This document shows positions 1,364-22,269 of a stretch of 33,271 nt of DNA, one piece after another; the stretch's first letter is position 1; each line of letters starts with the position of its first letter. The translations under genes were made by a program, and so were the position numbers. The notes beneath the pieces were generated by a model. It did not search any database. It was not told the origin of the DNA and saw only the letters and a program-made list of their open reading frames with translations. The stretch lies in IMG/VR virus record IMGVR_UViG_3300032898_000490, positions 1-33,271 of that record; one strand, given 5' to 3'. Source of the DNA: a virus.

Positions 1364-1581
1364 GCGCCGCCGGGCAGGCGGCATGGCCCTGGGGTGAGTG
1401 CCGCTGTCACGCGCACGGCATCGGCCACGCGCCGGCCGATCCGACTTCCGGGTTCTCTGCGCCTGCCGACCTGCCGGACAGTCCCGGCCAGTGGCGGGGC
1501 CGGGAGTGGCGCCATGTCCCGCTCTGCACTGACTGCATGCATAACGGCTGCGACGCTAACCGGCCGCTGCCCGCTCACTAG
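1360..1581 (+). CDS. small Cys/His-rich protein
   Basis: A 73-residue protein starting at a GTG that overlaps the previous TGA. It contains CRCHAHGIGH near the start and CTDCMHNGC near the end, a Cys/His set suited to metal binding. It is the last gene of the plus-strand cluster, and its stop overlaps by 4 nt the stop of the opposing basic protein gene. The two operons therefore converge with no room for a dedicated terminator. Confidence 0.55.
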   Translation: MSAAGQAAWPWGECRCHAHGIGHAPADPTSGFSAPADLPDSPGQWRGREWRHVPLCTDCMHNGCDANRPLPAH

Positions 1582-1871
1582 CCCCGGGTGCTGGTCAGCG
1601 CGAGGTTCAGCTTCGCCTTCTTCATCCTGACGACCTTCACCTTCCGTGCCTTGACGGCGCGGGCCTTCTTCATGACGGCCCCGTGCCCGGCTATCCTGCG
1701 CCGGCCATGGGCCTTGAACGCTGAGGCGTGCCGTCCCTTGTGGGCGCGGAACACGGCCGAGACGGTGCGTCCCTTGTGGGCCTTGAACGGAGTCGCCGTC
1801 CTCGCGGGCTTGCGCGGCGCGGCTGCCTTCGGCTTCCGGCGCTTCCTCGGCCGGTACGCCTTCCGCCTCAT
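1578..1871 (-). CDS. Lys/Arg-rich protein with AHKGR repeats
   Basis: This 97-residue protein is overwhelmingly basic. It has three tandem copies of a motif like FKAHKGR(T/H)xSA (FKAHKGRTVSAV, FRAHKGRHASA, FKAHGRRRIAG), followed by a run of KARKVKVVRMKKAK. At DNA level a 12-bp block (gtcccttgtggg) is repeated. The start at 1871 was chosen because its ATG overlaps the TGA of the head-tail adaptor. It resembles histone H1/HU-tail type low-complexity DNA-binding sequences. It is the last gene of the head operon, so binding packaged DNA or closing the neck is possible, but both are inference. Confidence 0.65.
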   Translation of the reverse strand: MRRKAYRPRKRRKPKAAAPRKPARTATPFKAHKGRTVSAVFRAHKGRHASAFKAHGRRRIAGHGAVMKKARAVKARKVKVVRMKKAKLNLALTSTRG

Positions 1872-2536
1872 CCGCGCATCCACGGCTCGAGCCACATCAG
1901 GGCGTCGTTGTGGAGCTGGTCAGGGTCGTGGTCGTTCGCGTCCGGGTTCAGCTCCCGCACCGCGAGGTAGGCGCTCATGAACTTGCAGGCCCGCACCAGC
2001 GACGCCGGGGTCGCCACCGTGTACCCGCCGCTGTAGGTGATCATCGTCCGCGAGCCGACGGGAATGAACTGCCCGAGCTGGAACCACACGTGACCGGTGT
2101 CCGGCTCCGGGCCGGACAGGATCTGCGCATTCGACAGCTGCTCAGTGCCGCCGTAGGACCGGACGATCGTCACCGACACGTCCGTGTACTGCCACATGTC
2201 CTGGTAGCGGGGCGCGAACTCGCTCACCCACGCGTGCCGCACCAGCGACGACGCCCCCAGGGCCTGCGCGTAGGAGGCCGACAGGGTCGACCGGACGTCC
2301 ATCGGCAGGTTCGCCGAGTCGGTGTACTCGTCCGGGTCGATGCCCTCAGCCCTGCTGTACTCCGTCAGGCCCGTGAACGCGGTGAGCCGCCGCTGCGTCA
2401 CGTCCTCGCACCGCCGCGTCCCCTCAGCCAGCAGGTCATACAGGGCCTGGTCGGTATAGTCCCTCACCAGGTCGCCGAGGGCGCCTTCCTGGAACTGCGC
2501 GGGCGAGCAGAGGGGAACCGGGGAGTCTGCCGCCAT
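1868..2536 (-). CDS. head-tail adaptor (gp6/connector-like)
   Basis: A 222-residue protein with the pattern of phage head-tail connector proteins. An N-terminal helical part (LVRDYTDQALYDLLAEGTRRCEDVTQRRL) is followed by a beta-rich middle (YTDVSVTIVRSYGG, GHVWFQLGQFIPVGS) and a final helix-rich part with ITYSGGYTVATPASLVRACKFMSAYLAVREL. The ITYSGGY...P..lv.A...... pattern is typical of adaptors that assemble on the portal. It lies downstream of the capsid gene, the expected position. Normally tail completion and tail tube genes would follow; here only the basic protein does. Confidence 0.75.
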   Translation of the reverse strand: MAADSPVPLCSPAQFQEGALGDLVRDYTDQALYDLLAEGTRRCEDVTQRRLTAFTGLTEYSRAEGIDPDEYTDSANLPMDVRSTLSASYAQALGASSLVRHAWVSEFAPRYQDMWQYTDVSVTIVRSYGGTEQLSNAQILSGPEPDTGHVWFQLGQFIPVGSRTMITYSGGYTVATPASLVRACKFMSAYLAVRELNPDANDHDPDQLHNDALMWLEPWMRG

Positions 2537-2587
2537 CAGCCCTCCCGTGTATGCGAATGACGGCGTGGAGGGCAGCGCTGCTAGCGG

Positions 2588-3052
2588 TTACGCCCTGGCC
2601 GTGCCGCGGGTCCTTGAGCGGGACGGCTTCGCGGCCTCGGCCGCCTCGCCATCTGCGGCGACCGGACCACGGCCGGGTTCTCCGTCGCCACCCTCGGCCT
2701 TAGCGGCCGGCTCAGGCTCCGGCTCCGGTGCTTCCGCTACCGAGTAGCCGGCACCCCTGATTGACAGCAGGTCGGCTCCCAGCTCGGGAGGAACCTCAGT
2801 GACCGACCCGTCCTCAGGCCACGCGTACACCTCCTTGCGGAAGGTGAGCTCCGTGCCGCCCTGTTCCTTGCGCAGCCACATCGGGCCGCCTCCTTGATCT
2901 CGTGGTGGCCCTGCCGCGGTGAAGCCGCCGACGCCGAGCAGGTGCGCGCCGACATGATCCGGGACCTCCGCCGGCGCCCCGGTGAACGGGAAGTTATGCA
3001 CGCCGCCCGTGTGAGCGACCATCCGGCCCGGCTGATCACTGGACACCAGCAT
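2588..3052 (-). CDS. neck-region small protein, possible in-frame double gene
   Basis: The reading frame gives 154 residues. Two short segments resemble each other: PAEVPDHVGAHLLGVGGF in the first third and TEVPPELGADLLSIRGAGY later, like the C-termini of small actinophage proteins found after the capsid gene. An internal ATG at 2881 is preceded by a near-perfect ribosome site (aaggagg, 6-nt spacing) and would give a 97-residue protein, MWLRKEQGGTEL onwards. So this may be two genes that lost a stop between them. The tail is an acidic, Ala/Pro/Glu-rich linker ending in a basic patch (SRSRTRGTARA). Function unknown; the position suggests head completion. Confidence 0.6.
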   Translation of the reverse strand: MLVSSDQPGRMVAHTGGVHNFPFTGAPAEVPDHVGAHLLGVGGFTAAGPPRDQGGGPMWLRKEQGGTELTFRKEVYAWPEDGSVTEVPPELGADLLSIRGAGYSVAEAPEPEPEPAAKAEGGDGEPGRGPVAADGEAAEAAKPSRSRTRGTARA

Positions 3053-3071
3053 CGGCGCGCACCGCCTTCAG

Positions 3072-4301
3072 TCAGGCCGCCTTGCCGCCCGCACGCTTGC
3101 GACGCTCGTAGTCCCGCTGCCGTTCACGCTGGCACTCACGGCACTTCCGGCCGCCGTCCGCGCGGACGATCAGGTTGTCGCCCTCGTACGGGTGGCCTTG
3201 CGGGCAGTGAGTCTTCGACCCTCTGGGCTTTCCCTTATTCGGGTTCGGGACTGCCTCGCCGTCCCGCCTGCGCCGCTGGTACTCCGCCGTGCAGGTGCGG
3301 CAGAACTTCCGGCCGTCCGGGCCCGTGTACAAGTTGTCGCCGGCCAACTCGTGGCCGTGCTTGCAGTGCGTCCGCGGGGGCTTCGGTGGCCGGGCCGCCT
3401 TCCGCTTGGCTTCGTGCCGGCGGTTGCGCTCACGGGAGCACTCACGGCACTTCTCAAGCCCGGACGGGGTCACGTACAGGTTCTCCGGCGTCCAGGGGTG
3501 GCCGTTCTTGCAAGTCTCACGGGGTGGCTTGGGGAGCTTTGCCGGCCGCGCCGCCTTCTGCTCATAGTAGGCGGCGAGCGTCTTGGCGTTGTGGCAGCTC
3601 CGGCACGCCTTACCGCCGCTCGGGCTGACGTAGACGTTCTCCTCGCTCCATGGATGGCCGTGGGCGCACGTCTCCCGCTCAGGCTTCGGCCCTTGCTCTG
3701 CTTTGCGCTTCTCGCGGGACCGGCGGCACTTGTCCCGCTCGCACTGGCGGCACACCTGCCGTCCGTTACGAACGACCCCGAACTCGGCCCACGAGTGCCC
3801 GTTCGCGCACCACTCGCGAGGCGGTTTCGCGACGATGGGGCTCTCGGCCCGCAGTCGTTCCCGCCGCCTGGCCATCTGCTCACGGGCGCACGCCCGGCAG
3901 ACGCGGCGACCGTCCCCGGCGATCCGGAGGTTGTCCCCGGCGAATGGATGACCCTGGGCGCAGTGCGTCTTCGCGCGCTGCGCTGCCGCACCGTTCTCCC
4001 ATGCCTTCGCGCGCCGCAGGTTCTCGGCGAGCGAGATCGCTTCCAGGTGCTGCGGCCGGACGCACGCCCGTACCGTGCACAGGTGGTCGATCGTGAGCCC
4101 ATCAGGAATCGGGCCGACGAAGATCTCGTATGAGGCCCGGTGCGCGAGCCTCATCTTGCCGTCTAGGTAGAACTGCCCGTATCCGCCGGTGCTCGGCGTC
4201 GGCTTCCACATCCAGCACGGGCCCAGCTCGGGCTTCCCTGGCGGGAGGGGGCCGTTCTCGTTGACCTTGCTGAGAAATCGCGCAAGGGTACGCTCGTTCA
4301 C
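3072..4301 (-). CDS. HNH endonuclease with six C-terminal zinc modules
   Basis: This 409-residue protein has an N-terminal HNH-type nuclease domain: CWMW at 29-32, AHRASYE at 53-59, GLTIDHLC at 68-75, ACVRPQHLEAIS at 79-90. The usual Asn of the VNPxHLE motif is Arg here (VRPQHLE). Six tandem modules follow, each with C-x3-H (CxxGH), then about 17 residues and C-x2-C (cysteines near 114/135/138, 165/184/187, 212/233/236, 264/285/288, 313/334/337 and 366/387/390), joined by basic Lys/Arg/Pro linkers. The array probably reads DNA as a zinc-module string. It lies between capsid and neck genes, like a free-standing homing endonuclease. It could instead act in packaging, since HNH proteins assist some terminases. 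Confidence 0.8.
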   Translation of the reverse strand: MNERTLARFLSKVNENGPLPPGKPELGPCWMWKPTPSTGGYGQFYLDGKMRLAHRASYEIFVGPIPDGLTIDHLCTVRACVRPQHLEAISLAENLRRAKAWENGAAAQRAKTHCAQGHPFAGDNLRIAGDGRRVCRACAREQMARRRERLRAESPIVAKPPREWCANGHSWAEFGVVRNGRQVCRQCERDKCRRSREKRKAEQGPKPERETCAHGHPWSEENVYVSPSGGKACRSCHNAKTLAAYYEQKAARPAKLPKPPRETCKNGHPWTPENLYVTPSGLEKCRECSRERNRRHEAKRKAARPPKPPRTHCKHGHELAGDNLYTGPDGRKFCRTCTAEYQRRRRDGEAVPNPNKGKPRGSKTHCPQGHPYEGDNLIVRADGGRKCRECQRERQRDYERRKRAGGKAA

Positions 4302-17257: not shown

Positions 17258-17664
17258 GCGGCCCCCAGGCTGTCGAGCCACGCCGATACCTGCTGGCAGT
17301 GGGCCAGTTGCAGCCCTTCGCCAGGGTGGACCTCAACCTGCAGCGTCGGCTCTCGCCTCGCCGCCGCCCACGCGCAGGCCTCCGGGGCGAACCAGTCGTC
17401 AATCCACGCCAGCGGCCTTATGCCGCACCACTCCCGGACGCCCGGCAGCTTCACCAGGCAGGGAAACTCGATCACCGCAAGCTCCGGCAGGCCGATGCGC
17501 GGTCCGATGTGCCAGTTCGCCGACTCGCCCCAGCCTGACGACGCCCACACGAGCTCGGCCCGGCCGGCGAGGGACAGGAGCCACTGCCCGTAGTCCGGCT
17601 TCAGCCACGGGAACAGCACGCCGTCCACGTCAAGGGCGATGACTGGGCGCCTGTCAGGCTGCAC
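17254..17664 (-). CDS. small HAD-like hydrolase
   Basis: This 136-residue protein has HAD motif I (VIALDVDGVLFPW), a Ser/Gly segment VWASSGWGESAN in the place of motif II, and an acidic motif IV, LAWIDDWFAPEA. It is shorter than typical HADs and lacks a clear motif III Lys and cap. Such minimal HAD proteins are common in actinobacterial mobile elements. The GTG at 17664 overlaps the portal stop by 11 nt, so it is probably translated by coupling to portal. A second HAD-like gene lies at the far end of the island. Confidence 0.65.
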   Translation of the reverse strand: MQPDRRPVIALDVDGVLFPWLKPDYGQWLLSLAGRAELVWASSGWGESANWHIGPRIGLPELAVIEFPCLVKLPGVREWCGIRPLAWIDDWFAPEACAWAAARREPTLQVEVHPGEGLQLAHCQQVSAWLDSLGAA

Positions 17665-20596
17665 GCTCGCCCTTGCCCTGCGACATGGCCATGACCTGCC
17701 ACGGCCCCTTCCCGGCGCTCACCTTGCCGGCGAACGCCCAGATCGAGTCCATGCCCTCGGCCTCTGCGGCGAGGAACCGGTGGTGGCCGTCGGCGATCAG
17801 CCACTTCTTGCCGTCCGGCGTCCTCACCAGCACGACGGGCTTGGGCTGCTCACCGGCGGCGAGCTTCTTGCGGAGCTTCTTCCTGGCCTTGGCGACACGG
17901 CCTGGCTGATGCCATGCCTGCCACTCGCCGCGGTCGGAGGTGTCAACCTGGTCCAGCGGGACCCGCTTCGGCCCGGACCACGAGACGTCGTCCTTGACCC
18001 AGGCGATCGCCGACGGCGGGAAGTCCCCGGCCAGCTGAGCGTAGACGCGATCGGCGGTGCCGGCGGTGGCCTCGGTGACGGGCAGCACGGCGAGGGCCTC
18101 GCGGACCCGCCGCCTGTACTCGATCATGCCTGCGGCGACCGCCTCGGCAGGCATCGGCGGCGTCTCGCCTTCTGGGGCACCCGCAGGCTCTTGCCCTGGC
18201 TGCATCGGCTCCCCGCCGGGCGTTTCCTCCCCGGCCGCGACCGCCGGGGCACCCTTCGCGGCGATCGACGCCTCCGACATGCGGGCCATATCCGCCCACA
18301 AGACGAGGTTCTGGCGGTCGACCAGGACAGGGTCGTCACCGCCGTCAGTCGGCGGCTCGCCGATCTCAGCACGGTATTTGTTGAGGGTGTTGCCAGTGAA
18401 GTACACGGTGCCGTCACGGCGGGCCATCCAGCTCTGGTTGCCTGTGCGAGGGCACCAGACGGTGCCCTCGTACACGACGCGCTCCGCCACGGCGTCCGGC
18501 GAGCCTTGCGTGATTGCCTGAAGCGGCCTTACCCCGGTCCGCTTGCTGACGTTGACCTTCCACATCCGGTAATGCGGCCGCTCGCTCTTCCAGAACTGGT
18601 AGATCGTCGCGGCGCGGCCAGCGAGGACGCAGGCTAGCTGGAACTGCTCCGCAGCGCGGCGGCGCTTCTGGGTGAGCGTCCGCTGGCCACCCTGCGAAAT
18701 GTTCCCGTCAGCCATGATCGAGACGTCTATGAACAGGTCAAGCTGCTCCTGGGTGAGCGCCATCAGGAACTCGTTCGTAACCACGTGATCGTGGACGACA
18801 TCCCTGAACATCTGCCCGTGCGAGGCGGCAATTCGGAAGTTGCGCGTCCCGTCCGCGCGGGGCTTCGGCTCTGTCCAGGCGCCGGGGTCGCTCTTCCGGT
18901 GGTACCTGGAGCGCTTGTAAGGCGGCCCGAAGAGCTTCTCCAGCGCATACCGGATGCGCGCGATCCCCTCCAGGTTCTTCTGGGTTATCCGGACGAACGT
19001 CTGGCCCTTTTCCGCGTGGCCCTCGGTCCAGAACCAGGCGACTAGCTCCACGAAGGCGTCATCGTAGACGGCCTCAACAGGCAATGTTGCGTTTGGTGCG
19101 GCGGTCAGGACGCGGTCCCAGATCGTCATCGTCTCGCTGGTCACCCAGCGCCGCTTCCACTCCCTGACCTTGCTGCCGGCGGTGTAGTTCTCGACCGGCC
19201 ACCTGTGGTCAACGGTGGTGAGAGACGAGTGCGCCCGCGACCGCAGCCGCATCATCTCCCGAGGTGCGGGCGGGAAGACGCAGACTTCCTCGCACTCCTG
19301 CCATTCCGCGTTGCCGGTCTCGTGGTTAAGGGTCAGGACCATATCGCCAGCATGGAGCGCGTCGTAGGCCTTCCAGCCGTCGCGGGTGAGGATCTCGGTT
19401 TCCTCGTCCGCGCACCAGGCGCCATTCCTCAGCCTCTGGTCACGAATACCCTCGATGACACTGCTGGCCCGGTAGTCCACATCACGGAACTTAGCATGCC
19501 AGCCGTCAATTCCGAAGCCATTGTTGGTAATTGAGAAATTGAACGCCTCAAGCACCAGCTCCGCAATTGGCTGGCACGTGTCGATTTCGTACGTGCGGTT
19601 CTGCTCTTCCCCGGTGCCGCCGCCGAGATTGCCGGACTCTATTACGCCCGCCTTTGACGGGGGGACGCCGAACGAGCTGAGTATCTCGTCGCGGGCCTGG
19701 TCCTTGAAGGCCAGGACGTCGGTGACCTTGCCGGACTGCAGCTCGGTGAGCTTGCCGCCGTTCTTGGTGGTGATCGGCGCGCCGATGTTCCTCGGCCCGA
19801 CCTGCGTGACCATGTACCGGTCGCGCCACCGCTTGACCTCGCTGTCAGAGTAGGAGGCTGGCAGGTCGGCGTGGACCGCCGGGGGCAGTCCCTTCCTGAA
19901 CATCTCCTTGCCAGTCGCCGCGGCGTGCAGCCACGCCGTGATGGGCAGCAGGGCCGCCTGCATCGGGGGAATCCCGAACACCGACGACCGGGGGGCGTCC
20001 AAGCTGACGTGGATGACCTCGCGCGGCTCGAATGTCGCGCGCTGCCCGTAGTCGGTCACCTGGACGTAGGAGGTGACGTCGCCGTGCTCATCAGCGACAG
20101 GGGTAGTGGTGGCGCTGTCCAGGTTGTAGATGGCGACCGGCTGGCTGCCCCACCAGACAACCTCAAGGAACGCGTCACCGAAGACGAGCAGGTCAACGAT
20201 GAACGCGCGCAACAGCTGCCGGATGTTCTGCCGCGGGTTGGTGTAGGCGATCAGCCGCTCGAGCGCCAGCACCTCGGGCGGCTTTTCCGGCTGCTCCTGG
20301 CCCTCGCCGTTGTCGGTGTCCCAGTCCATGACGAGGCCGCCCGCGGTGATGGTCCGGGCTATGGCGTTAACGCAGGCCCAGGCCCAGGGGCAGGCAATAT
20401 AAGCCTCGTACAGTTCCGTCAGGGCAGAGCGGCGGTCGGTCTGGGTGCTCGCCCCGACGCCCGCGGTGTACTCGTCGATCCCGCCTGGCGGGATGCCGCC
20501 CGCGTACCCGCTGCGGCGCACCGCGGATGCAGGGATGGCCCGCTCGGGGGCGGCCTCGGTGACGTCCTGGCGGCGGAACCGGTTCCAGAAGGCCAA
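17654..20596 (-). CDS. portal protein with intein and ParB-like C-terminal domain
   Basis: The 980-residue precursor begins with a portal-type N-terminus (LTELYEAYIACPWAWACVNA) and passes through the core, with LVFGDAFLEVVW, REVIHVSLDAPRSSVFGIPP and ILSSFGVPPSKAGVIE. Its conserved C-terminal motif GAW/TLNKYRAEIGEPP is interrupted between Trp394 and Thr737 by an intein. After the extein a Pro/Glu linker leads to about 115 residues like ParB/sulfiredoxin domains: RVPLDQV, PKPVVLVRTPDGKKWLIADG and HHRFLAAEAEG (DGHHR motif). The start is TTG at 20596 with an aggagg site. The portal is the dodecameric gate through which terminase pumps DNA. The extra domain could bind or cut nucleic acid; its role is inference. 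Confidence 0.9.
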   Translation of the reverse strand: MAFWNRFRRQDVTEAAPERAIPASAVRRSGYAGGIPPGGIDEYTAGVGASTQTDRRSALTELYEAYIACPWAWACVNAIARTITAGGLVMDWDTDNGEGQEQPEKPPEVLALERLIAYTNPRQNIRQLLRAFIVDLLVFGDAFLEVVWWGSQPVAIYNLDSATTTPVADEHGDVTSYVQVTDYGQRATFEPREVIHVSLDAPRSSVFGIPPMQAALLPITAWLHAAATGKEMFRKGLPPAVHADLPASYSDSEVKRWRDRYMVTQVGPRNIGAPITTKNGGKLTELQSGKVTDVLAFKDQARDEILSSFGVPPSKAGVIESGNLGGGTGEEQNRTYEIDTCQPIAELVLEAFNFSITNNGFGIDGWHAKFRDVDYRASSVIEGIRDQRLRNGAWCADEETEILTRDGWKAYDALHAGDMVLTLNHETGNAEWQECEEVCVFPPAPREMMRLRSRAHSSLTTVDHRWPVENYTAGSKVREWKRRWVTSETMTIWDRVLTAAPNATLPVEAVYDDAFVELVAWFWTEGHAEKGQTFVRITQKNLEGIARIRYALEKLFGPPYKRSRYHRKSDPGAWTEPKPRADGTRNFRIAASHGQMFRDVVHDHVVTNEFLMALTQEQLDLFIDVSIMADGNISQGGQRTLTQKRRRAAEQFQLACVLAGRAATIYQFWKSERPHYRMWKVNVSKRTGVRPLQAITQGSPDAVAERVVYEGTVWCPRTGNQSWMARRDGTVYFTGNTLNKYRAEIGEPPTDGGDDPVLVDRQNLVLWADMARMSEASIAAKGAPAVAAGEETPGGEPMQPGQEPAGAPEGETPPMPAEAVAAGMIEYRRRVREALAVLPVTEATAGTADRVYAQLAGDFPPSAIAWVKDDVSWSGPKRVPLDQVDTSDRGEWQAWHQPGRVAKARKKLRKKLAAGEQPKPVVLVRTPDGKKWLIADGHHRFLAAEAEGMDSIWAFAGKVSAGKGPWQVMAMSQGKGERAA
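18389..19414 (-). other. intein with LAGLIDADG endonuclease in portal
   Basis: Residues 395-736 of the portal precursor. Cys395 starts block A (CADEETEILTRDGW), and TVDHRW (461-466) forms block B with its T-x-x-H. LAGLIDADG-like motifs LVAWFWTEGH (518) and LFIDVSIMADGN (621) mark a homing endonuclease. Block F is TVWCPRTGN (712-720), and the C-terminus is VYFTGN followed by Thr737. The penultimate residue is Gly, not His. W466 (B:12), C715 (F:4) and T734 (G:5) match the WCT triad of class 3 inteins, although a Cys is also present at position 1. The flanking extein joins to a conserved portal motif. Confidence 0.85.
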
Positions 20597-20622: not shown

Positions 20623-22269
20623 TCACGCCCACGGCGCCCGCTGCACTATCCCGCGCGGGGCATCATCGTCATCAGCGAACGGGGCGCGCTCCGGGGCGCC
20701 CGCGTCAGGCGCACGGGCGAACGCGCCATGCTGCTCGAGCGGCGTCACGCCGAGGCCATCGGCCGCGCCAGGGGCATCGGGGAGCACGAACTGGGGGCCG
20801 GTGCCGATGTTGACGAGCCAGTACCGGAGGCAGTCTGCGAGGTGATCGGGGGCGTCGGTGTCGGCGTCCTCAGGGTCGCCCTTCTTCGCATGCGGGAGGT
20901 TCTCCAGCTCCCACCACAGCTTCGGGCAGGTGCGGAAGATGTGGATCTTGGGGCAGGTCTTCCAGCCTTGCGCCCGGTGGATCGGGCATGCGGGCGCCTC
21001 GGCGAGGTAGGTATGGATCCGCTGCCATCCGGCGACCCGCGAGTGAGGCCCCTTGCCCGCTGGCGTCAGGGGAACGCCGTTGTCCGAGTAGACGTCGGCG
21101 ATTGCCTTGACGTCGCCGCCCCGGGATGCCCACATGGCATCATCGGCCAGCCGGAGGCTGACGTGCTCGCCGTCGGCCTCCGCAGCGAGGATCCGGCGGG
21201 CCTGCTCGGCCTCGCCGACCTGCGTCTCGTAGATCTCCCGGTAAACCCAGGCGCGGCCATCCTCATCAACGCAGCCCCAGAGGGTCCCCCAGGGCTTCGC
21301 GTAGCCCCAGTCCGTCGAGGTGTACCGCCGCCATGAGGCGGGAAGCTCGAAGGGGTCGATGACGTGCCGGTCCCAGCGGAGGGCCGGGAACATCTGCCCG
21401 GCGAACTGGCTCCAGTCGCCGTCCCGCATCGCCGCGCGCCGGGCCTGGTCAGGGATCGCGTCCAGGCGGCGGAAGTAAGCCGCGTCAAGGAACGGGTTAT
21501 CCGTCGCCTTCGCAGGGATGAACCGGCGGGTCAGCCCGTGATCATCGGTGAGGACGACCTTGCCGTGCTCGGTCGGATCTATGTAGCGGGCCTTGACCTC
21601 GCCATGCGAGGGGCCGCCCGGGTTTGACGTCGACCGGATGCCCAGCACCGGGACGCCCTGCGCCGACCGCAGCCGCTCCAGGGCGATCGCGTCGGTCACC
21701 CCGGGGCTGAGGAGCGTCCTTTCATCGACCAGCAGGAGCTGGTAGGCACCACCCTGCCGCTTTGACGCGTCCTCGAGGCTGTCCATGTACCGGAGGCGGA
21801 TCACTGACCGGTTCGGGAACGTCAGTTCCTTCTCCGTCTTGTTCCACCGGCCGCCGAGGGCCGCGGCCCACGAGATCCGCTGGAACTCGGGATAGACCGA
21901 CTCCGCCAGCTCGTCATAGGTGCGGCGCAGGATCAGCACCCGGATCCCCGGGTGCCTGGAACAGGCCCGGACGGCCTCCATGACGATCGCGCAGGTCTTC
22001 CCGCCCCCGGCCGCTCCGCCGTACAGGACATCGTCCTCGGTCGCTGAGTGGAATAGCTCCTGCGGGCACTGGCCGCACGGCTCCGGCAGCAGTCCGGCGA
22101 CCGCCTCAGTTACCTGCGGGTCGTACAGGCTGTCGACGCCCAGCCGTGCCGCGGCCTCCTTGCGGATCCTGTGCCGCGGCAGGCAGATCGGCTCGTAGCC
22201 CAGGACGTCGAACGCGTCGTCAGGCGGGTCAAGCTGATCGGCCAGCGCCGCGGCGTACGCGTCCGCCAC
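20623..22269 (-). CDS. terL: terminase large subunit
   Basis: This 548-residue protein has an N-terminal ATPase with Walker A GGAAGGGKT (near 84-92), arginine-containing RVLILRRTYDEL, and Walker B LLLVDE. The C-terminal nuclease domain has YTSTDWGYAKPWG, LRLADDAMWASRGGD and DAPDHLADCLRYWL, the acidic residues of the RNase H-like fold. It would cut concatemeric DNA and drive it through the portal. The GTG at 22269 has a gcggagg ribosome site. It follows terS by 17 nt and precedes portal, the classical order. The C-terminal tail is acidic. Confidence 0.92.
   Translation of the reverse strand: MADAYAAALADQLDPPDDAFDVLGYEPICLPRHRIRKEAAARLGVDSLYDPQVTEAVAGLLPEPCGQCPQELFHSATEDDVLYGGAAGGGKTCAIVMEAVRACSRHPGIRVLILRRTYDELAESVYPEFQRISWAAALGGRWNKTEKELTFPNRSVIRLRYMDSLEDASKRQGGAYQLLLVDERTLLSPGVTDAIALERLRSAQGVPVLGIRSTSNPGGPSHGEVKARYIDPTEHGKVVLTDDHGLTRRFIPAKATDNPFLDAAYFRRLDAIPDQARRAAMRDGDWSQFAGQMFPALRWDRHVIDPFELPASWRRYTSTDWGYAKPWGTLWGCVDEDGRAWVYREIYETQVGEAEQARRILAAEADGEHVSLRLADDAMWASRGGDVKAIADVYSDNGVPLTPAGKGPHSRVAGWQRIHTYLAEAPACPIHRAQGWKTCPKIHIFRTCPKLWWELENLPHAKKGDPEDADTDAPDHLADCLRYWLVNIGTGPQFVLPDAPGAADGLGVTPLEQHGAFARAPDAGAPERAPFADDDDAPRGIVQRAPWA

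Follow-up and report, generated by a model that had tools for sequence, protein, structure and literature searches.

The window analysed here is a complete virus record of 33,271 bases (IMG/VR record IMGVR_UViG_3300032898_000490), whose portal protein gene is interrupted by an in-frame intein. The intein classes 1, 2 and 3 and the Trp-Cys-Thr (WCT) triad of class 3 inteins are already known. The window intein carries this triad together with a cysteine at position 1 (Cys1), a combination that turns out to characterize a whole family of inteins outside the class 3 clade. The window intein is most probably of class 1 type.

The portal gene and its intein

The portal gene (17654..20596, minus strand) is an open reading frame of 980 amino acids, called with a TTG start, and its product matches the Pfam family Phage_portal over residues 71–363 (E 1.4e-29). 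The intein occupies residues 395–736 (18389..19414, minus strand) and is 342 amino acids long, running from C1 to T340-G341-N342. It is preceded by an N-extein (residues 1–394; 19415..20596, minus strand) that ends in ...RNGAW, and is followed by a C-extein that begins at Thr+1 (TLNKYRAEIGEPP...; 17654..18388, minus strand).

These boundaries were tested with 12 related portal loci, which were fetched and aligned to the window portal. Ten of them lack an insert and align straight across ...RNG(A/S)W-TLNKYR...; they represent at most nine distinct junctions, the L009–L011 junction being identical. Of the other two, L002 has an intein at the identical site, while L013 ends before it. Because the intein-less relatives align through the site, both splice junctions are fixed, with the intein extending from Cys395 to Thr-Gly-Asn and Thr+1 following it. 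This agrees with the original prediction, made from the window sequence alone, which had placed Cys395 at position 1 (also supported by block alignment) and had noted a Gly-Asn instead of a His-Asn end. The prediction that the insertion splits a conserved portal motif held as well, as the motif RNG(A/S)(W/Y)-(T/I/V)(L/I)(N/D)(K/R)... is kept in all ten intein-less portals.

The insert also contains the LAGLIDADG endonuclease that had been proposed for it, with a match to Pfam LAGLIDADG_3 (PF14528) at residues 520–574 (E 1.4e-5). Both of its motifs are conserved in the intein family described below: motif 1 (LVAWFWTEGH; 19016..19045, minus strand), which is supported by the Pfam match, and motif 2 (LFIDVSIMADGN; 18701..18736, minus strand), which was recognized in the sequence. 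The domain lies between blocks B and F, as in endonuclease-bearing inteins. The window intein was also modelled with AlphaFold2, with a mean predicted local distance difference test score (pLDDT) of 94.3, and the model resembles endonuclease inteins and I-DmoI.

Block alignment places Cys395, the presumed first nucleophile, at A:1 (19412..19414; this and the following positions are on the minus strand). In block B it assigns Thr461 to B:7 of a TxxH motif (19214..19216), His464 to B:10 (19205..19207), Arg465 to B:11 (19202..19204) and Trp466 to B:12 (19199..19201). Further on, Cys715 is F:4 (18452..18454), Thr734 is G:5 (18395..18397) and Gly735-Asn736 are G:6 and G:7 (18389..18394), after which comes Thr+1 (18386..18388), the putative second nucleophile. 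Hence, the assignment of W466, C715 and T734 to B:12, F:4 and G:5 is correct, and none of the three falls outside these columns. The span from F:4 to G:7 is 22 residues in both the window intein and the class 3 intein of ET08 gp202, without gaps.

By these residues the window intein shares features with two classes. In line with class 1, it has one of the nucleophiles Cys, Ser or Thr at position 1 and a TxxH motif in block B, but it has Gly at G:6, where His is usual though not universal in class 1. It has the Trp B:12, Cys F:4 and Thr G:5 of the class 3 inteins of the DnaB/TerL (terminase large subunit) clade. However, a class 1 nucleophile is by criterion absent from position 1 of class 3 inteins (the Ser1 of ET08 gp202 being a known exception), where the window intein has Cys395, and DxxH and a His at G:6 are expected of them, where it has TxxH and Gly. 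The literature likewise contrasts DxxH in class 3 with TxxH in class 1 (PMC6195587, PMC12245125).

The portal gene lies directly downstream of a terminase large subunit gene (20623-22269). The C-terminal extension of the portal (17654-18388, minus strand) has a weak ParB-like match at residues 903–953 (E 0.15), which is unusual in portals. Elsewhere in the window, a 409-amino-acid protein (3072-4301, minus strand) matches the HNH endonuclease family phrog_826 in six stretches, which are possibly repeated.

A family of inteins with Cys1 and the WCT triad

We gathered 119 distinct relatives of the window intein from viral contigs, phage records, plasmids and bacterial genomes, and coined the name GN family for them. 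Cys1 and the full WCT triad occur together in 112/119, in phages as well as actinobacterial chromosomes. Since the combination is common to so many distinct relatives, the triad in the window intein is not due to chance; Cys1 plus WCT is the rule of a large family rather than a peculiarity of one phage. Among the 119, position 1 is Cys in 117, B:7 is Thr in 112, B:11 is Arg or Lys in 115, and B:12 is Trp in 114 and Val in five. Similarly, F:4 is Cys in 118, G:5 is Thr in all 119, G:6 is Gly in 118, G:7 is Asn in 117, and the +1 residue is Ser, Thr or Cys in 117. The residue at −1 is mostly aromatic. The window intein has all the family features, namely Cys1, TxxH[RK], Cys at F:4, a TGN end and a match to the family hidden Markov model (HMM).

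The retrieval carried some bias, as one scan for relatives combined an F-block pattern with an endonuclease pattern, and another combined an N-terminal pattern that includes the Cys with an endonuclease pattern. In the endonuclease/F-block scan, whose patterns do not touch position 1, Cys1 was present in 70/70 relatives. In the genome scan the F:4 Cys was present in 34/35, the sole exception being the decayed L186. Overall, Cys1 is kept in every intact relative and is absent only from two decayed ones, L032 and L186.

In L032, a Streptomyces avidinii plasmid, a 655-amino-acid gene (1498-3465) consists of two tandem decayed intein-like domains with no clear N-extein; the first runs from Arg1 to TGE, and the second is without the F:4 Cys. 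Further Streptomyces plasmids also match the window intein. L186, from Streptomyces tateyamensis, is an orphan pseudo-intein with Leu1, Gly at F:4, a terminal Asn replaced by Gly, and a 17-amino-acid tail. Given such relatives, the window intein might itself have decayed and lost splicing. This is very improbable, as its catalytic positions, Thr+1 and both LAGLIDADG motifs are intact and its frame is open within the portal gene. Moreover, an uncharacterised portal intein from an uncultivated phage contig in IMG/VR (L002/L034) occupies the same site with 67% identity, and also has Cys1, the triad and TGN.

GN family inteins are found in portals, TerL, methylases and DNA polymerase. The portal intein of Gordonia phage Woes and its relatives are ~35–48% identical to the window intein and share its Cys1, triad and TGN, but they reside in other host genes or sites. 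They include the inteins of GordTnk2 and GMA3 TerL, Pinkcreek gp135, and chromosomal amidase-like genes of Nonomuraea, Nocardiopsis and Thermobifida. In genomes of Streptosporangiales and Nocardiopsaceae, the exteins of GN family members resemble an Amidase_2 domain, as read by eye from the sequence. The chromosomal members in such peptidoglycan-amidase-like genes are found among L161–L195; the inteins of L188, L193 and L194 are 259–273 amino acids long, with shortened endonuclease regions.

The intein of LilBib gp51 (mycobacteriophage RDF-type, L117) also has Cys1, Cys at F:4 and TGN, but differs in having Val at B:12. From its gene annotation we infer that it is the RDF intein described previously (PMC5050341). 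According to that work, the RDF intein splices with a penultimate Gly, replacement of this Gly by His is harmful, and phage inteins of class 1 that end in Gly-Asn are known (PMC5050341).

Comparison with class 3 inteins

Our class 3 set consists of 23 usable sequences, namely ET08 gp202 and relatives matched by the ET08 query. Left out were L149, L152, L007 and L013, because the alignment did not place their ends, and L025, L093, L094 and L150, because they ran off the locus. L007 and L013 are also, respectively, an intein-less and a truncated relative of the window portal, and on their contigs the ET08 query hit a class 3-like intein tail with a THN end. The ET08 gp202 intein itself begins with Ser1, carries the WCT triad and ends in THN. 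Tori and Perler reportedly showed in 2011 that a Ser1 plus WCT intein, MP-Catera Gp206, is class 3. The ET08 gp202 protein is described as 99% identical to Catera gp206 (PMC3029335), and MP-Catera Gp206 is listed as a class 3 intein that splices efficiently (PMC3196547).

The window intein has the WCT triad, His B:10 and Thr/Ser at +1 in common with class 3 inteins such as Msm DnaB1, Mch DnaB1 and ET08 gp202/MP-Catera Gp206. In contrast to the window intein, none of the 23 class 3 sequences has Cys at position 1, which is Ala in 12, Gly in four, Asp in two, Leu in two, and Ser, Gln or Met in one each. Nor does any have Thr at B:7 (Asp in 14, Gly in four, Cys in three, Ser and His in one each). 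They all have His at G:6, and the residue at −1 is Lys in 22/23. Judging from these sequences, Thr B:7 (TxxH), Arg B:11 and Gly G:6 are features of the Cys1 family, not of class 3. Conversely, parts of the triad occur elsewhere. The Cys1 intein of phage Pinkcreek TerL (L114:38546-39352) has Trp B:12 and Thr G:5 yet Ala at F:4, with a His-Asn end; hence, W and T alone are not marks of class 3.

Trees were built from chosen subsets of 39, 44 and 48 rows, with columns A:1, B:7, B:12, F:4, G:5 and G:6 removed. The 48-row tree omitted x_L120, k_TfuRecA2, y_L229, w_L029 and w_L030, and m_L312 did not qualify. In all three trees, the window family and its relatives with Cys at F:4 were split from class 3 and the Asp-type class 1 inteins (support 99/98, 100/99 and 97/97), and class 3 formed a clade of its own (96/94, 99/99 and 98/98). 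The window intein fell outside this clade in each of the three. A quick tree of 80 rows also separated the groups; its approximately unbiased (AU) tests were discarded because the likelihood of the constrained trees exceeded that of the free tree.

Similar results were obtained with HMMs in which the diagnostic residues were masked. With its nearest relative left out of the family HMM, the window intein scored 131.8 bits against its own family, 20.1 bits against class 3 and 0.3 bits against Asp-type class 1. Fifteen class 3 sequences, each left out in turn, scored 107.6–150.7 bits against their own group and 11.0–24.0 bits against the GN family. The original prediction had taken the triad as a class 3 marker. 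By these sequence comparisons, however, the window intein does not appear to be a member of the class 3 clade despite its WCT triad.

A class 3 intein as probable relative: AceL NrdHF

Class 3 splicing has been proven for AceL NrdHF, which begins with Ala1, has a Met-Cys-Thr triad and terminates in Thr144-Gly145-Asn146 (PMC7891396). It shares with the window intein its TGN end, an Arg at B:11, the F:4 Cys and a Ser/Thr-xxH motif. It differs in its Ala1, its Met at B:12, its split form, the absence of a LAGLIDADG domain and its proven class 3 splicing. Its Arg69 (B:11), equivalent to Arg465 of the window intein, contacts the C-scissile carbonyl and aids the C-junction; replacing Gly145 by His abolishes splicing, and Ser to Thr at B:7 is tolerated (PMC7891396). 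AceL NrdHF itself is present in viral contigs L234–L238.

When a profile of the GN family was compared with the PDB, AceL NrdHF (6zgq) was the best sequence match (E 0.0023), and DnaB-type class 3 entries were absent among the 14 matches listed. Searching the PDB by phmmer with the window intein itself yielded no useful match, and a profile search with the C-terminal blocks found no intein. Structural comparison of the window model with VIA-align ranked 6zgq first of the splicing domains, with Z 19.4 and 1.8 Å over 149 residues. The second-best splicing domain scored 17.4, and Msm DnaB1 (6bs8) and Mch DnaB1 (6riy) scored 14.9 and 14.8, respectively. In Foldseek, gp41-1 ranked slightly above AceL by E-value.

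In the trees AceL lies on the GN side, beside the Cys1 intein of the phage phiTE ribonucleotide reductase, although this pairing is weak (84/54 and 20/32). The masked HMMs gave it 50.7 bits for the GN family, 60.6 bits for the HRM branch described below (based on five members) and 9.0 bits for class 3. AU tests of a placement of AceL inside class 3 gave p 0.038, or p 0.176 with more HRM rows and five rows omitted. By tree, HMM score and structure, AceL NrdHF is thus likely kin of the Cys1 GN family. It may be a sister to the Cys1 members rather than nested among them, since a clade of all Cys1 GN inteins without AceL was not rejected (AU p 0.21). That AceL NrdHF, with its Ala1 and proven class 3 mechanism, groups with a Cys1 family makes more than one origin of class 3 chemistry probable.

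Which cysteine starts splicing

From this anatomy, family membership, conservation and relationship we infer an order of chemical steps and a role for Cys715. The window intein, an endonuclease-bearing member of the GN family, is probably of class 1 type, with Cys395 starting splicing and Cys715 serving as helper or latent nucleophile; we put the probability of this at roughly two in three. Cys395 would attack the Trp394-Cys395 peptide bond to form a linear thioester, and Thr+1 would then take over the N-extein. Asn736 would cyclise, with Arg465 helping in place of the missing G:6 His, and the exteins would join. Cys715, His464 and Thr734 form the same Cys-His-Thr set as the first-step centre of class 3. 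In the window intein this set would probably assist, with Cys715 as a latent second nucleophile. In the distant relative AceL NrdHF, position 1 would have become Ala and the F:4 Cys would have taken over.

The role of Cys395 is supported by a sister branch, which we scanned for with the block-B pattern H[RK]M only. This pattern introduces no bias at A:1, F:4 or the C-terminal end, and it yielded 80 loci, in 72 of which the alignment reached the C-terminus (59 distinct C-termini). Cys1 is present in all 66 distinct N-termini of this HRM branch. At F:4, the 59 tails have Cys in 53, Ser in four, Leu in one and Val in one (whose Cys is shifted by one residue), and G:5 is Cys in 26, Ser in 22 and Thr in 11. 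G:6 is Gly in 58 and Tyr in one; G:7 is Asn in 57 and Gln in two. L256 and L283 are HRM-branch inteins with a Thr-Gly-Gln end, one of which has Leu at F:4. Hence, F:4 and G:5 vary in this branch while Cys1 is constant. This variation, together with the invariance of Cys1 in intact members, makes Cys395 the most likely first nucleophile.

An alternative is that the window intein splices by the class 3 mechanism despite its Cys1, as is reported for the Ser1 plus WCT intein MP-Catera Gp206, with Cys715 acting first at the N-junction and Cys395 as a bystander. The whole triad is present at the correct spacing, the intein of ET08 gp202 offers a Ser1 plus WCT precedent (PMC3196547, PMC3029335), and the solved splicing domain most similar to it, that of AceL NrdHF, belongs to a class 3 intein. 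Yet, in the ET08 group position 1 of the four closest members (L123–L126) has drifted to Ser, Ala, Ala and Asp, as expected of a residue that is presumably an unused bystander, whereas Cys1 is fixed in all intact relatives of the window intein. As the window intein also keeps TxxH and sits outside the class 3 clade, we regard this alternative as unlikely.

Similarly unlikely is a relay of three steps, in which the N-extein is carried from a linear thioester at Cys395 to Cys715 and from there to Thr+1. The near-invariance of both cysteines in the Trp-bearing branch would fit a relay, as would the report that the F:4 Cys of AceL NrdHF can face either junction (PMC7891396). On the other hand, the natural Ser (4/59) and Leu (1/59) at F:4 in the sister branch argue against it, and no known intein is so described in the literature excerpts searched.

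Several points weigh against assigning the first step to Cys395. Conservation does not tell the two cysteines apart in the Trp-bearing branch, where Cys715 is kept as strictly as Cys395. MP-Catera Gp206, with Ser1 and WCT, is classed as class 3 (PMC3196547), and the F:4 Cys of AceL NrdHF can start splicing in a like structural setting (PMC7891396). Finally, when the window intein was joined to class 3 along with its nearest relative, two AU tests spoke against this placement (p 0.021 and 0.019) but a third, with another row set, gave p 0.059, and the alignment data comprise only ~140 columns.

Possible bridges between splicing mechanisms

Cys at F:4 is reported as the second commonest residue at that position among inteins (PMC4031507), and class 1 inteins with an F:4 Cys are known and have been termed polyphyletic (PMC3196547). 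In the literature searched (excerpts, few subscription papers), we found no description of a Cys1 plus WCT family, nor of a kinship between AceL NrdHF and inteins with Cys1. A class 3 survey of 1701 inteins was gathered by the absence of Cys1 and the presence of Cys at F:4 (PMC7891396); such a criterion excludes Cys1 plus WCT inteins from the resulting collections. Surveys that define class 3 by a missing Cys1 are therefore blind to these inteins, and an intein cannot safely be assigned to a class by its WCT triad alone.

The original prediction had suggested that the window intein is a transition form between splicing mechanisms. As a description of a singular form this is not supported, since the combination occurs in 112/119 relatives. 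At the level of the family it gains partial support from the mechanism switch seen in AceL NrdHF, and it is plausible that Cys1 plus WCT inteins such as that of the window are bridges between splicing mechanisms.

A more tentative proposal sees a living bridge in the GN family: its members would have a competent F:4 Cys-His-Thr centre next to Cys1, so that either cysteine, or a relay between them, could start splicing. Class 3 chemistry would then have two or more origins, one in the DnaB/TerL clade and another in the GN family that gave rise to AceL NrdHF. The simultaneous changes needed for a class switch have been called improbable, since grafting WCT onto gp41-1 minus Cys1 failed (PMC7664689). 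Under the living-bridge proposal, the loss of Cys1 need not go through a dead intermediate. A natural family that combines Cys1 with the F:4 centre, and that has proven class 3 kin, offers an evolutionary path without such an intermediate, and one that is directly testable.

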